Positions 27,743-49,539 of a stretch of 64,000 bases of DNA are shown piece by piece. The position numbers were made by a program, and so were the translations under genes. This stretch comes from Armatimonadota bacterium (GTDB lineage: Bacteria > Armatimonadota > Fimbriimonadia > Fimbriimonadales > Fimbriimonadaceae). The stretch spans positions 1-64,000 of the forward strand of contig DAIDHV010000007.1 of NCBI GenBank assembly GCA_027451905.1. The letters run 5' to 3'. The first letter of the stretch is position 1, and each line of letters opens with the position of its first letter. A model generated the notes under the pieces. The model was not told the DNA's origin and did no database searches. It was given only the letters and a program-made list of their open reading frames with translations.

Positions 27743-28360
27743 TTGGGCAAAGTTTTTGATTTGACTGATGAAGAAGTCTGGCTTGGGATTTCATCGAGTT
27801 CACCGCGTGTTTGCGTGGCTCTAATTGACCCTCTTAATCCAAGCTTTTTTTGGGAGAAGAGCGCTCTTGCCAATCATAATGCCAGTTCGGCGATCTCTAT
27901 TCTGGTTGGTGAGGCTAGGGAAGTGTGTCACTTGGCTGACAAAAGAATTGGCGCCGTCCTCGTTGATATTGGTCCTGGAAGCCATACCGGAACGCGAGTT
28001 GGGGTGTCATTTGCCAAAGCCTATGCTCTTGGTTCTAACCTAGGCATGGTTGCAGTCGAAGCGTTTGATCTGATTTCCACCGAAGAAGTGGTATCCATTT
28101 CTAGCCGCAAAGGCGAGTTTGTTGTTCGAGAAGTTGGCCAATCACCAAGAGTCTGTACTGAATTGCCGACGGGATCGGTTGGATGGTCTAAAGACGAAAT
28201 TGAACCTAAGTATCCTTCTTTTCGTGGCTATTCTGAGTGGTTTACAAACGTCAAAAATGGGTCTGCCGTCGAGATTGTTCCCGCATATTATGGAGAGCCC
28301 TTGGTTTCCACTCCTAAGGTGCAGTTTGCAATGAAGAACTCGGAGAAGGTGATGAGATAA
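27743..28360 (+). CDS. tsaB: tRNA threonylcarbamoyladenosine biosynthesis protein TsaB-like
   Basis: A 205-residue ASKHA-fold protein. 'WLGISSSSPRVCVALID' matches the N-terminal TsaB strand, and the 'DIGPGSHTGTRVGVSFAKAYALG' segment matches the GPGSFTGLR signature of TsaB with Phe replaced by His. TsaB is the scaffold partner of TsaD and TsaE in making t6A37 of ANN-decoding tRNAs. The protein is slightly short and its C-terminus diverges. The start is TTG 27743, four bases after the previous stop. The stop overlaps the proposed murB start. Confidence 0.78.
   Translation: MGKVFDLTDEEVWLGISSSSPRVCVALIDPLNPSFFWEKSALANHNASSAISILVGEAREVCHLADKRIGAVLVDIGPGSHTGTRVGVSFAKAYALGSNLGMVAVEAFDLISTEEVVSISSRKGEFVVREVGQSPRVCTELPTGSVGWSKDEIEPKYPSFRGYSEWFTNVKNGSAVEIVPAYYGEPLVSTPKVQFAMKNSEKVMR
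28342..28349 (+). promoter_or_regulatory. Ribosome binding site for murB with a non-canonical start
   Basis: GGAGAAGG ends 7 nt before ATA 28357 and 10 nt before ATT 28360. These are the only plausible initiation codons upstream of the conserved MurB N-terminus. Confidence 0.5.
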
Positions 28361-29304
28361 TTCGCGAGAATGTCTCCCTAAAGCCTTACACTATGCTCAA
28401 GGCGGGTGGCCCAGCGGAGAGGCTCGCAATCGCCAACCAACTCGAAGATTTTGACGTTTTGGCGGAATCTGTTTTTAAGCCTGGGCCACTGACTCTTCTT
28501 GGCTATGGCAGCAACGTTTTGGTATCTGATCTTGGCTTAAAAGGGCTGACAGTCATCAATCGAACAAAGCAGATCTCTCATCTAGGCAATGGGATTTGGG
28601 AGGCAGATTGCGGAGCATGGCTTCAAGATTTGGTTCTTGCTTCCGCTCAAAAAGGGTACGGTGGCCTTGAGTTTGCGGTTGGAATCCCTGGAAGCGTTGG
28701 AGGAGCGCTTGTGTCCAACGCGGGGGCCTATAGAAGCTCGATTGGAGATCACCTTGTTCAGGTGCAAATTTTAGATCATCGGGGCAAGAGATGGGTCGAG
28801 CCATCCTACTTGAAGCTTTCTTATCGTAATAGTCGCTTGAGGGAAAACCCAAGCGACAAGCTTTTGCTGCTGTCGATTCAGGTGAAACTTCACATGGGCT
28901 CTGCTGCGCAAATTTATGGGAGAATGCGTGAATATCAGAGGCAAAGAATCAGCAAACAACCTCCTCCCGCTAGCGCAGGCAGCTTTTTCAAGAACGTTCA
29001 TGACCAGCAGCTAGCTAATCAACTAGAAAACTTACCGGACGGGATGCGCAAGAATGGAGTCATTCCCGCTGGGTTCCTGATTGAGGCTTGCGGCCTAAAA
29101 GGCTTTCGATTAGGAAGGGCCATGGTGGCTTGGAAACATGCCAATTTTATCGTCAACGATCAAGGCGCTTCGGCTACCGAAATTAGGCAGTTAGCTCAAC
29201 ATGTGAAAAACGAAGTTTTCCAAAAGTTTCAGGTTAGTTTGCAAGAAGAAGTCCTTTACTTGGGAGACTGGCCTAGTTTTCCTGATTCTAGCCTTCAAAG
29301 TTAG
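28360..29304 (+). CDS. murB: UDP-N-acetylenolpyruvoylglucosamine reductase, probable ATT or ATA start
   Basis: A type of MurB with FAD-binding 'LTLLGYGSNVLVSD' and 'LEFAVGIPGSVGGALVSNAGAY', 'LSYRNSRLRE' (Arg), and 'PPPASAGSFFKN' (proton-donor Ser). The first ATG (28393) falls inside the conserved opening: codons just upstream encode ENVSLKPYT, which continues into MLKAGGPAERL exactly as in family members. The frame is closed by TAA at 28315, and no ATG, GTG or TTG lies between it and 28393. ATT 28360 or ATA 28357, behind GGAGAAGG, is therefore the likely start. It makes UDP-MurNAc for peptidoglycan. It overlaps the tsaB stop. Confidence 0.9.
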   Translation: MRENVSLKPYTMLKAGGPAERLAIANQLEDFDVLAESVFKPGPLTLLGYGSNVLVSDLGLKGLTVINRTKQISHLGNGIWEADCGAWLQDLVLASAQKGYGGLEFAVGIPGSVGGALVSNAGAYRSSIGDHLVQVQILDHRGKRWVEPSYLKLSYRNSRLRENPSDKLLLLSIQVKLHMGSAAQIYGRMREYQRQRISKQPPPASAGSFFKNVHDQQLANQLENLPDGMRKNGVIPAGFLIEACGLKGFRLGRAMVAWKHANFIVNDQGASATEIRQLAQHVKNEVFQKFQVSLQEEVLYLGDWPSFPDSSLQS

Positions 29305-30329: not shown

Positions 30330-30944
30330 TTAAGGCTTTTGATCGGTTTTTGTTTCCGGTCCGCTATCGCTGGTTTGATCGTTGCTGAACAGATCGTTGT
30401 CTGAAGTCAAAGCAGGAAGTGGAGAACTTAGATCACCGGATCCAAGGGTTTGAATCGGCTGGCCATTAATTTCAATTGAAATTTCTTTGACCCCTGCGAA
30501 CTGACCGGCGTTGCGTCGAAGTCCATCAATCAACATTTTCTCATCAAAAGAGCCGTAGGTTTGCTGAAAGTCGGCACTAAACGCAAGATGAGCAATCCCA
30601 TTTCTGACCTGCTCTCCAATTAATCTCGAGTGGGGTGGGGCAATGTTGGTTTTGGCAAGAAAGCTGTTTATTGCGACCGTCATAGGATCTTCGCCTTGGT
30701 GAACTTTGGCGGTATGCACGCTAAAAAGAATTCCTTGAGTTGTCATTTTCGGCACAAAGTACGAGACCGAGGTTAGTTCGGAAATGTTGGGTTGGCTGAC
30801 TGGCTTGGCAATCTTGACAAACTGTGGAGGAGTTACCGCGTGAGGCTCTTTGATCACATAAAGGGTGAGGGCCCCTAACCCGATTGTCGACACGAAGACT
30901 GTGGCGACGGCAAAAGTCATTTTGTTGAACGGTTTGCCTTTAAT
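30330..30944 (-). CDS. GerMN-domain membrane-anchored protein, probable ATT start
   Basis: About 204 residues. An N-terminal membrane anchor ('FAVATVFVSTIGLGALTLYVI') is followed by a GerMN domain: 'DPMTVAINSFLAKTNIAPPHSRLIGEQVRNGIAHLAFSADF' and 'MLIDGLRRNAGQFAGVKEISIEINGQ'. GerMN domains are thought to bind peptidoglycan and often accompany amidases. The first ATG is 30920, but AAGGAG at 30952-30957 is 7 nt from an in-frame ATT at 30944 that overlaps the amidase stop as ATTAA. Starting there adds Lys-rich residues (Lys-Gly-Lys-Pro-Phe-Asn-Lys) before the membrane helix, as expected for a cytoplasmic N-terminus. Confidence 0.83.
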   Translation of the reverse strand: MKGKPFNKMTFAVATVFVSTIGLGALTLYVIKEPHAVTPPQFVKIAKPVSQPNISELTSVSYFVPKMTTQGILFSVHTAKVHQGEDPMTVAINSFLAKTNIAPPHSRLIGEQVRNGIAHLAFSADFQQTYGSFDEKMLIDGLRRNAGQFAGVKEISIEINGQPIQTLGSGDLSSPLPALTSDNDLFSNDQTSDSGPETKTDQKP

Positions 30945-45516: not shown

Positions 45517-46220
45517 TGCAAGAAGTACAACTGATGGTCACCTGCCTTTGCGACGCCATTTATGGTGAAGTTGCCATCAGCACGGTACAAGTTTTAGAAA
45601 AACTGGGATGCAAGGTTCATTTTCCTAAGAATCAAACTTGTTGCGGCCAGCCCCCCTTTAATTCAGGAGATTGGGAAAACTCTAAACTGGCAGCAAATCA
45701 CTGTATTTCTGAGTTTCAAAAGCAGGATTTGCCAGTTGTGGTGCCAAGCGCCTCTTGCGCGGCAATGGTAAGGGAGGGCTACAAAATGATGGGGCTCGGA
45801 AGCCCTCTTGTCATTTACGAACTCAGCGAATTTATAGCTGACAAATGCCAACTTGATTCCGTGAAAACCTGGAAGTCCTATCCCCATAAGGTTGCTTTTC
45901 ACCAGGCCTGTCACGGTCGATCCATCGGCTTGAAGGATCAGCAGGAAACTCTTCTGCGCAAGGTCCCCAACATCCAGCTAGTGGCATTTGAACAAGCAGA
46001 GCAATGCTGTGGCTTCGGGGGAGCCTTTTGCGTGACCCATGGTGCACTTTCCGAAGGAATTGGATTGGAAAAGCTAAAGAACATCAAGGAATCAGGAGCC
46101 AACGAGATAGTGACGGGAGACATGGGATGTGCGGTTCATTTGGAAGGGCTCATCAAAAAGCATCAAATGAATTTGAGAATTCGCCATTTTTCTGAAATCT
46201 TGGCGGAGGTTCTCATCTGA
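45516..46220 (+). CDS. lutA: Lactate utilization protein A (CCG-domain Fe-S oxidoreductase subunit)
   Basis: A 234-residue protein with two CCG (cysteine-rich) domains: 'LEKLGCKVHFPKNQTCCGQPPFNSGD' and 'VAFEQAEQCCGFGGAFCVTHGALSEGIGLEKL'. This is the LutA/LldE/YkgE pattern. With LutB and LutC it forms the complex oxidising L-lactate to pyruvate. The start is a GTG overlapping the last base of the aldolase stop (TAGTG). The location right after a lactaldehyde dehydrogenase explains its role: removal of L-lactate made from rhamnose. Confidence 0.9.
   Translation: MQEVQLMVTCLCDAIYGEVAISTVQVLEKLGCKVHFPKNQTCCGQPPFNSGDWENSKLAANHCISEFQKQDLPVVVPSASCAAMVREGYKMMGLGSPLVIYELSEFIADKCQLDSVKTWKSYPHKVAFHQACHGRSIGLKDQQETLLRKVPNIQLVAFEQAEQCCGFGGAFCVTHGALSEGIGLEKLKNIKESGANEIVTGDMGCAVHLEGLIKKHQMNLRIRHFSEILAEVLI
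46205..46209 (+). promoter_or_regulatory. Ribosome binding site for lutB with probable CTG start
   Basis: GGAGG lies 7 nt before an in-frame CTG (46217) that overlaps the lutA stop (CTGA). The next standard in-frame codon, GTG 46277, has no Shine-Dalgarno. Confidence 0.45.
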
Positions 46221-47578
46221 AAAGTTCTCGGGTCGAGTCCTTTGCAGAGGCTCTCTCAGCTTCCACGACCGAAGCCGTGCGCTCTGCGTCTGCTTCAAAG
46301 GTGACAGCAAGAGAACGGGCCCTCAAGACTTTGTTTTGCGAGCCCCCTCAAGCCCAAGACACTGCTTCGGCAATCAAATCCTATGTTTTGGATCACCTCC
46401 GGACTCTCTTGATTGAGTTGGAAGCCCAATGCCTCTCCAACGGCATCCAAGTGCATTGGGCCAACAATGCAGAAGATGCCAATCAAATCATCGTTGATCT
46501 TTGCAAAGAATCAGCCAAACCAGGAGACGTCATTGTCAAGGCGAAGTCCATGGCAACAGAAGAAATTCACCTCAATCACCATTTAGACGAAGCGGGATTT
46601 GAGACCGTTGAGACCGATCTAGGCGAATTTGTTGTTCAGATTGATCACGACACGCCAAGCCATATTGTCACTCCGATTATTCACAAAACGCGAAAGGAGA
46701 TCGCGGCTAGTTTTTCTAGAGAAGAACTAGGACCATATACAGAAGAGCCCAAGGAGCTCACGATGCAAGCTCGAGCACATTTGAGAAAGAAGTTTCGGGA
46801 AGCCAAAATAGGCATCAGCGGGGTGAACTTTGCTATAGCTTCGACCGGGCATTTAGTATTGGTTGAAAATGAAGGGAACAATAGGTTCTGCACAACGGCA
46901 CCCGATGTTCACATTGCATTGATGGGAATTGAAAAAGTCTTGCCAACTCCAGCCGAACTACCCCTGTTCTTGCCCTTGCTGGCAGCGTCCGCCACCGGAC
47001 AACTACTGACGACTTATGTTCATTTCATTAAGAGCCCGAGGCAAGAACGTGAAACTGACGGACCCAAAGCAATCCATTTGGTGATCTTAGACAACGGAAG
47101 GACAAACGTGCTTCAGGGACCATTTCGTGAAATCCTAAAGTGCATCCGATGCGGTGCCTGCCTCAATGTTTGTCCGATCTATCGACAGGCTTCTGGGCAT
47201 GCGTACGGGCATGTTTACTCGGGGCCCTTAGGGGAGGTTTTGGCACCTGCTCTAGAAGGAGTTGAAAGTTTTGGTGACCTAGCCAAGGCTTCGACTCTTT
47301 GCGGCGCTTGCCAGGAAGTTTGCCCTGTAAAAATCCCCATTCCTGAGCTTCTGCTCGAAATCCGCCACAGGGCCAATTCTCCTTCCACATCAGAGAAGTT
47401 GGCTTGGACCTCCTTTGCCCAAGCTTCTCAGCATCCATTGGTTTGGAAGTTCGGGCTAAAACTCCTGCCATTGGCACCCATGGCTAGGCACCCATTTTTG
47501 ACAAGTTGGCTGAAGCGAAGGACTTTGCCAACCCGAGTTGGACGCGATTTTAGGGGGTGGTGGAATGAACGCTCGTGA
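46217..47578 (+). CDS. lutB: Lactate utilization iron-sulfur protein LutB
   Basis: A protein of about 453 residues. The N-terminal LUD domain has 'IHWANNAED'-like and 'VKAKSMATEEIHLNHHL', 'SIVTPIIHKTRKEIAASF'-like and 'STGHLVLVENEGNNRFCTTAPDVHIALMGIEKVLP' segments. Two 4Fe-4S motifs follow, 'CIRCGACLNVCPIY' and 'CGACQEVCPVKIP'. The C-terminal helix 'RHPFLTSWLKRRTLP' is also typical. It carries electrons from lactate oxidation. The conventional start would be GTG 46277; codons upstream remain open and CTG 46217 has a good GGAGG, so the longer form is proposed with caution. It overlaps lutC by 14 bp. Confidence 0.88.
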   Translation: MKSSRVESFAEALSASTTEAVRSASASKVTARERALKTLFCEPPQAQDTASAIKSYVLDHLRTLLIELEAQCLSNGIQVHWANNAEDANQIIVDLCKESAKPGDVIVKAKSMATEEIHLNHHLDEAGFETVETDLGEFVVQIDHDTPSHIVTPIIHKTRKEIAASFSREELGPYTEEPKELTMQARAHLRKKFREAKIGISGVNFAIASTGHLVLVENEGNNRFCTTAPDVHIALMGIEKVLPTPAELPLFLPLLAASATGQLLTTYVHFIKSPRQERETDGPKAIHLVILDNGRTNVLQGPFREILKCIRCGACLNVCPIYRQASGHAYGHVYSGPLGEVLAPALEGVESFGDLAKASTLCGACQEVCPVKIPIPELLLEIRHRANSPSTSEKLAWTSFAQASQHPLVWKFGLKLLPLAPMARHPFLTSWLKRRTLPTRVGRDFRGWWNERS

Positions 47579-48113
47579 GACGATCTTAAACTCTTGCCCT
47601 CTCGGAGAGCCTACTGATCCTTGGCCAGCGCCGTATTTCGTTTTACCTCCCGGGTCCGTAGTTGAGGCCTTCAAAACCTCATTAAATTTGCTGGGGGCAA
47701 GGACCATTGATGAGAACGAGTTGGCAGGCTATATTGGGCCAAAAACATGGGTTGAGCCAAATGCAGGATTAGAAGTGAATGCCTTGAATGGCTTTCAGAA
47801 TCAAGTTGATCTTTGGGATGCTGAGGTAGGAATCGCCTCTACGGTCTTGGCAATAGCCCAAACCGGAAGCGTCTGCGTGAAGTCTGGTCAAGGCAACAGC
47901 CGATTAGCAACCCTTGCCCCTCCGATTAATATCCTCATTGTCCATCGCAACAAAATCGTTCCGTCTTTACTCGAAGCTTTGGAACTTCTACCGGACGGCA
48001 ATGTTGCCTTTATAACCGGCGCAAGCCGCACAGCCGATATAGAGGGTGTTTTAGTGCCTGGCATTCATGGGCCAAAAGAAGTTCTTGTTTGTCTGGTAGG
48101 AGGCGAACATTAA
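47565..48113 (+). CDS. lutC: Lactate utilization protein C (LUD domain)
   Basis: A 182-residue LUD-domain protein: 'WDAEVGIASTVLAIAQTGSVCVKSGQGNSRLATLAPPINILIVHRNKIVPSL' and 'NVAFITGASRTADIEGVLVPGIHGPKEVLVCLV' match LutC/LldG. It is the third subunit of the lactate-oxidising complex. ATG 47565, behind a GGGGGTGG stretch and inside the lutB end, is the likely start. The stop codon is overlapped by the ATT start of the kinase gene. The family can also act in other oxidations, but the neighbours make lactate the best substrate. Confidence 0.88.
   Translation: MNARETILNSCPLGEPTDPWPAPYFVLPPGSVVEAFKTSLNLLGARTIDENELAGYIGPKTWVEPNAGLEVNALNGFQNQVDLWDAEVGIASTVLAIAQTGSVCVKSGQGNSRLATLAPPINILIVHRNKIVPSLLEALELLPDGNVAFITGASRTADIEGVLVPGIHGPKEVLVCLVGGEH
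48098..48103 (+). promoter_or_regulatory. Ribosome binding site for rhaB with ATT start
   Basis: AGGAGG lies 5 nt before ATT 48109. An in-frame TAG at 48097-48099 overlaps it, so translation cannot start further upstream, and ATT is the only sensible initiation codon before the conserved N-terminus. Confidence 0.75.
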
Positions 48114-49539
48114 GTATTGGCTTGCAGTTGATATTGGTGCCGAAAGCGGACGGCACGTTTTGGGGTGGGTTCATGATGGAAGCCTGCAAACTCGTGAAAT
48201 CTACCGCTTTGCAAACGCGCCCACCAAACAGGGCCATAGTTTGAGATGGAATCTGCCGGACCTTGTTACCAATGTCAAGAAGGGTATCAGTCATGTCGAT
48301 GAACCTCTCACTTCGGTGGGAATTGATACTTGGGCAGTAGATTACGGTCTACTTGACAGTGACGGCAAGCTCCTTGATTTGCCCTATCACTACCGAGATA
48401 GTCGGACGTTTGGAGTGATGGCAAAGGTCTTTGAAATTGCTTCAAAGCAAGAGATCTACGCCCAAACTGGATGTCAGTTTTTACCTTTCAATACCCTTTA
48501 TCAGCTTCGCGCGGCCGTCGAATCTGGAGATGAGGCATTTAAGTCAGCGGCACAGATTGCAATGATTCCAGACTTGATTCACCAATCTCTCACCGAATGC
48601 AAAGCCCCTCCCATCGAACTCACCAATGCCAGTTCAACCCAGTGCTTGAATCCAGTGACTAGGAAGTGGAACGCCAATTTGCTGGAAAGGCTTGAAATCC
48701 CTCTAAAGCTTTTTCCTGAAACTATTGAGCCCGGAACCATTCTTGGAAAGCTTCATGGTACTCAGACCAACGTCGTTGCTCCTGCGACTCACGACACGGG
48801 AAGCGCAGTTGCTGGAATTCCAATTTCAGGTCCGGAAACGGCTTGGATTAGCTCGGGAACGTGGTCTATTGTGGGGCTTGAAACGCCTTCTCCGATTATT
48901 TCTGACCTTTCGTTTCAGTTTGGACTCACCAATGAAATTGGATTCGACTGTAACCGATTGAGCAAGAACGTCATGGGGCTTTGGATTGTGCAGCAGCTCA
49001 ATGTTGCCTGGAAGTCCAGGTTCAGTTACGAAGAACTCCAGAACCTAGCCGCTTCCCAGCCTTCGCCTAAAATTTTTATAGATCCTGATCATGAAATGTT
49101 TTTAGCTCCTAACGATATGGAAGCTGCCATTCATTTCTTTTGCAAGTTAACTCATCAAGCCGAACCGGTTGGCCCTGCCATGATCATGAGGGTTGTGCTA
49201 GAAAGCCTAGCTCTAAAATATAAGTTTGTCCTTGATCAGATTTCCTTGGTTGCGGCAAGTCGTATTCATCAATTGCACATAGTGGGCGGAGGAAGTAAAA
49301 ATAGTCTCCTCAATCAGCTCACTGCCAATGCTTGCCAATTGCCGGTAGAAGCGGGCCCAACCGAGTCAGCAGCAATTGGAAACCTATTGGTTCAAATGAT
49401 CGCAACGGGGGCAATCGAATCTTTGCAATCTGGACGTCAATTGGTTCGATCTTCCTTTGATGTTGTTCGATTTGAACCCAATGATGATTGGCTTCATTCT
49501 CAGTTGCCTTACTTTACAACACTTTGCCACCTTAATTGA
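48109..49539 (+). CDS. rhaB: Rhamnulokinase, ATT start
   Basis: A protein of about 476 residues in the FGGY kinase family. The N-terminus encoded from ATT 48109 reads as (Met)-Lys-Tyr-Trp-Leu-Ala-Val-Asp-Ile-Gly-Ala-Glu-Ser-Gly-Arg, the phosphate-1 motif of RhaB. A start at the first standard codon (TTG 48160) would delete this essential motif. Other motifs are 'SVGIDTWAVDYGLLD', 'YHYRDSRT', 'TQCLNPVTRKWN', 'ATHDTGSAVAGIP' (catalytic Asp), 'AWISSGTWSIVG' and 'HIVGGGSKNSLLNQLTANA'. It phosphorylates L-rhamnulose. It is coupled to lutC by an ATTAA overlap. Confidence 0.95.
   Translation: MKYWLAVDIGAESGRHVLGWVHDGSLQTREIYRFANAPTKQGHSLRWNLPDLVTNVKKGISHVDEPLTSVGIDTWAVDYGLLDSDGKLLDLPYHYRDSRTFGVMAKVFEIASKQEIYAQTGCQFLPFNTLYQLRAAVESGDEAFKSAAQIAMIPDLIHQSLTECKAPPIELTNASSTQCLNPVTRKWNANLLERLEIPLKLFPETIEPGTILGKLHGTQTNVVAPATHDTGSAVAGIPISGPETAWISSGTWSIVGLETPSPIISDLSFQFGLTNEIGFDCNRLSKNVMGLWIVQQLNVAWKSRFSYEELQNLAASQPSPKIFIDPDHEMFLAPNDMEAAIHFFCKLTHQAEPVGPAMIMRVVLESLALKYKFVLDQISLVAASRIHQLHIVGGGSKNSLLNQLTANACQLPVEAGPTESAAIGNLLVQMIATGAIESLQSGRQLVRSSFDVVRFEPNDDWLHSQLPYFTTLCHLN

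Follow-up and report, generated by a model that had tools for sequence, protein, structure and literature searches.

Translation of rhaB, a rhamnulokinase-like FGGY kinase gene at positions 48109 to 49539 (+ strand) of the 64,000-nt stretch of DNA analyzed here (the window), very probably initiates at an AUU codon, a kind of start that is very rare. Judged from the sequence, this codon (ATT, 48109 to 48111, + strand) gives by far the best reading of the start region. It shares a base with the stop codon of the preceding gene, lutC, and the same genome contains further genes for which near-cognate start codons are proposed.

The rhaB start site

The rhaB frame is bounded upstream by an in-frame TAG (48097 to 48099, + strand), and its first standard start codon is a TTG at 48160 to 48162 (+ strand). 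The codons between them are GAG GCG AAC ATT AAG TAT TGG CTT GCA GTT GAT ATT GGT GCC GAA AGC GGA CGG CAC GTT, with no ATG, GTG, or TTG. An earlier note on this DNA had assigned the N-terminus of the protein, with its phosphate-1 motif, to this interval, and had placed an AGGAGG 5 nt upstream of the ATT; both were confirmed from the bases. The AGGAGG, a Shine-Dalgarno (SD) sequence at 48098 to 48103 (+ strand), lies within lutC and is separated from the ATT by the spacer CGAAC, an ideal spacing, and the matching anti-SD is present at the 3′ end of the genome's own 16S rRNA. AGGAGG by itself shows no enrichment across the window, with 21 occurrences on the + strand versus 18.4 expected. We regard the rhaB arrangement as beyond chance because the AGGAGG stands at an ideal distance from a codon aligned with the methionine of homologs, because it matches the genome's own anti-SD, and because of a genome-wide enrichment described below. 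A second in-frame ATT, at 48133, falls inside the N-terminal motif. From the TAG to the conserved N-terminus there is no other codon of a known initiator type, which supports the note's view of ATT 48109 as the only sensible start.

Read from the ATT, the rhaB product is IKYWLAVDIGAESGRHVLGW. Homologs begin with MKYYLAVDIGASSGRHILG (locus L014), MKYFLAIDIGASSGRHILG (L079), and MKCYLAIDIGASSGRVLAG (L005), and the rhaB ATT stands at the position of their methionine. Across approximately 100 homologs, an ATG, GTG, or TTG was found near the equivalent position, mostly no more than three codons away. Counted along the open frame, the FGGY_N match starts at residue 6, which lies two codons past the ATT. 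Rhamnulokinase was the best match among kinase families, with a score (442.9 bits) below the TIGR02627 equivalog cut-off (527.95); the name RhaB is therefore based on the best match together with the operon context.

It is highly improbable that a truncated RhaB is translated from TTG 48160. This codon is a standard start from which the frame remains open, but it lies 3′ of the phosphate-1 motif and has no SD. Starting there would drop the DIGAESGRH motif, which is conserved in homologs, whereas the coding signal of rhaB extends upstream of the TTG as far as the ATT. A weak start codon could also be what early decay looks like, with rhaB having lost its start and being translated poorly or not at all. 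We consider this quite unlikely, since the 475-aa frame is unbroken and carries both FGGY_N and FGGY_C, the operon is intact, the strong SD has been kept, and other genes with near-cognate starts in this genome are essential (murB and lptG).

The lut-rhaB operon and the lutC-rhaB junction

rhaB belongs to an operon that combines rhamnose and lactate functions, in the order aldolase II-SDR fusion (43435), lutA (45516), lutB, lutC, rhaB, and a TIM-barrel isomerase-like gene (49542). lutC (47565 to 48113, + strand), which encodes a LUD domain, has orthologs in loci L352 and L353, and lutA-lutB-lutC-rhaB occur in identical order in two genomes of the same family, G015 and G040. The rhaB ATT is not kept in G015 and G040; retention of the start codon among relatives is typical of regulated AUU genes but does not define the class. 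In both of these genomes the most likely start of rhaB is a TTG preceded by GGAGG, and the gene overlaps the end of lutC by other lengths. The comparison indicates that the SD inside lutC and the gene overlap have been kept and that the rhaB start codon has not.

The lutC stop codon TAA (48111 to 48113, + strand) is overlapped by the rhaB ATT. The note had described one shared base between the two codons, which is correct; as genes, lutC and rhaB share 5 nt (ATTAA). ATG, GTG, and TTG starts cannot produce a -5 nt overlap, and rare ATT starts have been put forward as a possible way to account for overlaps of this length, which could then take the forms ATTAA, ATTAG, and ATTGA (PMC10666635). The lutC-rhaB junction has exactly the ATTAA form. 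Where stop and start codons overlap, re-initiation is supported by SDs located within the upstream gene (PMC6728339; PMC2268962). Like the known termination-reinitiation pairs with ATGA or TGATG (PMC6728339, PMC10666635), lutC-rhaB has both an overlapping stop and start and an SD in the upstream gene; unlike them, its overlap is one that ATG, GTG, or TTG could not form.

The rhaB frame is offset by +1 from that of lutC, and the lutC stop codon has an SD-like sequence ahead of it, as would also be expected if a prfB-like +1 frameshift at CAT TAA, stimulated by the AGGAGG, joined LutC and RhaB in one polypeptide. Such a fusion seems most improbable, however, because inspection of the sequence makes re-pairing of tRNA-His from CAU to AUU implausible, the spacing of the AGGAGG suits initiation, and relatives keep lutC and rhaB separate, with rhaB starting at TTG.

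Translational coupling of rhaB to lutC is likely, in view of this arrangement. Ribosomes ending lutC translation at the UAA would halt within 2 nt of the rhaB AUU and would open any local RNA fold. A post-termination ribosome could then re-engage the AGGAGG in the lutC tail and restart at the AUU, so that a strong SD and coupling together would let a near-cognate codon serve as a start. The AUU would be read by the initiator tRNA, and the first residue would thus be (formyl-)methionine. RhaB output would be expected to lie below the AUG level and to be tied to lutC translation. We infer re-initiation at the AUU by combining separate pieces of the literature, namely SDs within upstream genes, SD-backed AUU starts, and the ATTAA overlap. 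A possible 9-bp RNA hairpin at 48086 to 48109 (+ strand) would half-hide the SD beside the AUU and may, according to the predicted fold, hinder free ribosomes at rhaB; the segment was picked after the fold, and the fold of a larger segment around it at the junction was not significant. A conserved junction hairpin found no support, as the lutC-rhaB junctions of relatives have none.

In E. coli, infC and pcnB have AUU starts that are controlled by initiation factor 3 (IF3), infC being the textbook case. As in rhaB, AUU is their sole plausible start and has a good SD. rhaB differs from them in lying inside a catabolic operon, in having a start that overlaps an upstream stop, and in that the logic of autoregulation does not apply to it. 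In S. aureus, starts at AUU or AUA have extended SDs and give ~10% of AUG output (PMC13009471). In S. aureus cvfC1 (AUU) and ccpN (AUA), as in rhaB, a strong SD compensates for the near-cognate codon (PMC13009471); Ribo-Ret demonstrated those starts, which are conserved, whereas that of rhaB is read from sequence and its relatives use TTG. Streptomyces sigR (PMC5472188) likewise combines a non-canonical start with translational consequences in an operon, but its start is GTC, it is a regulatory gene, and repression by IF3 has been demonstrated (PMC5472188). In E. coli, AUU is a very poor start, put at ~0.3% of AUG by the Hecht 2017 figure that PMC10666635 cites, and switches from AUG to AUU are extremely rare, at 1/61,358 (PMC5622118).

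Further proposed near-cognate starts in the same genome

The note had treated the AUU of rhaB as an isolated curiosity. The same genome appears to have further near-cognate starts, one of them, that of lutB, in the same operon. lutB (46217 to 47578, + strand) has a proposed CTG start that overlaps the lutA stop (CTGA) and follows GGAGGT at 46205 to 46210; its orthologs begin ATG-SSRV, one codon after the position equivalent to the CTG, and the standard alternative is GTG 46277. For murB (28357 to 29304, + strand), the proposed ATA start overlaps the stop codon of the TsaD-like (TsaB-like) gene before it (ATAA) and follows AGGTGAT at 28347 to 28353, with ATT 28360 as an alternative; in the 29 family orthologs read, a standard start lies close to the same place. 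Outside the window, lptG (L122:2746, - strand) has a candidate CTG start with a CTGA overlap after GAGGTGA, and the matches of its product to the LptG and LptF/LptG profiles begin at residues 4 and 6. aroE (L131:9237, - strand) has a candidate ATA start with an ATAG overlap and an AGGAGG, and is a less certain case because a GTG is present at the domain edge. N-terminal homology extends upstream of any standard start in lutB, murB, and lptG and, less surely, in aroE.

infC (L133:7673, + strand) serves as a positive control for AUU in this genome. Its ATT start, in the context GAGGTGATCC-AAG-ATT, overlaps no stop, and its open frame has no standard start before residue 49. Two further genes in the window are candidates. 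A Germane-domain gene (30330 to 30944, - strand), which follows an amidase gene, has a possible ATT start at 30944 to 30942 with an ATTAA overlap and AAGGAG, and an ATG eight codons downstream is also a possible start. In rimM, homology extends upstream of the first standard start, a GTG, and the candidate starts, ACG or ATC (60558 to 60544, - strand), have a weak SD and overlap the end of the preceding gene. Strong SDs mark infC, lutB, murB, lptG, aroE, and rhaB in a genome that is poor in SDs, and an upstream stop is overlapped, or nearly so, in every gene of this set, including rimM and the Germane-domain gene, except infC.

These genes bear on whether the ATT of rhaB stems from an error in sequencing or assembly, or from a mutation that arose recently in this strain, with a G read as or mutated to T in a true or usual ATG. 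The ATT is one base off ATG and relatives carry a standard rhaB start, as such an event would predict. We nevertheless consider it unlikely, given that several genes here show differing near-cognate codons (ATT, CTG, and ATA) with strong SDs and overlapping stops, that infC, where AUU is expected, does read ATT, and that an ATG in place of the ATT would extend the lutC frame by several codons. Sequencing error, a truncated start at TTG, and a frameshift fusion are each much less likely than initiation at AUU with coupling to lutC.

Near-cognate starts were also sought statistically in a sample of 864 kb of the 2.87-Mb genome, window included, in which genes were modelled by codon statistics. 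SDs of at least 6 nt were present at the standard starts of 35 of the 668 gene models. In-frame codons lying 6 or more codons ahead of the first standard start made up the test set and were scored for an SD of 6 nt or more. Such SDs preceded 11/264 near-cognate codons versus 37/3733 other codons (odds ratio 4.3, Fisher p=2e-4), a p value that is indicative only, because one SD can serve neighbouring codons and because rhaB itself was the starting point. There was no excess in either control, with 2/179 versus 44/2814 in G031 (same family) and 1/236 versus 39/4382 in G065 (same order). The 400-kb G031 sample gave no support for a family-wide relaxation of start choice, although near-cognate lptG starts do occur in several family genomes (see below). 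A cross-genome blastp comparison of gene models, meant to gauge the near-cognate rate, had little power (108 usable genes from this genome) and returned lptG as its sole clear case.

Start-codon checking and lptG in the family

IF3 is the factor that rejects non-standard start codons (PMC4611024, PMC5472188). We aligned it from 30 genomes together with E. coli, Geobacillus, and Thermus (loci L133:7667-8308 and L252-L269). The lysine at E. coli position 110 was replaced by L, Q, A, or G in 16/16 family genomes, with L in this one; it was also lost in family f5 and mostly kept in the remaining genomes aligned. Lys110 presumably matters for IF3 function, although a literature search found no statement on its role. 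Its loss is only a lead, since G031 has the same change without enrichment of SD-preceded near-cognate codons. No initiator tRNA gene turned up in the assembly of this genome (G000), whose only CAU tRNAs resemble the elongator Met and Ile2 types. Relatives carry GGCTCATAACC at least twice each; because they have the gene, its absence here is probably an assembly gap. A variant initiator tRNA was considered as well, but such a gap is likelier.

A wider reading, which we offer tentatively and consider possible but rather doubtful, is that this genome routinely uses AUU, AUA, CUG, and perhaps ACG at stop-overlapping starts, in ~1% of its genes and including essential ones. Re-initiation with a strong SD would then bypass start-codon checking, perhaps aided by the Lys110-less IF3 of the family. 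The components of coupled, SD-backed near-cognate initiation are already known; their apparent repeated use, with near-cognate codons at stop-start overlaps in one genome, is new. If the proposed starts are confirmed, the genome holds a natural set of such starts. These could show directly whether start-codon checking is laxer in re-initiating ribosomes than in fresh ones, and whether ribosomes do make use of the ATTAA type of -5 nt overlap, which has been considered almost impossible. Because common gene callers are limited to ATG, GTG, and TTG, genes with near-cognate starts are silently mis-started. For rhaB, lutB, murB, and lptG, mis-starting would cost 12 to 25 residues, catalytic or membrane segments included.

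Near-cognate lptG starts were found in 5/30 family genomes, with CTG in this genome and in G010, ATA in G031, and ATC in G011 and G038, though in the last two a GTG ten codons further upstream could serve instead. Among 30 lptG loci outside the family, there was at most one ambiguous near-cognate case. At the aligned start, lptG orthologs from other genera of the family read ATA (L203), ATC (L212 and L213), and CTG (L225), and this variety suggests that near-cognate starts have arisen more than once.
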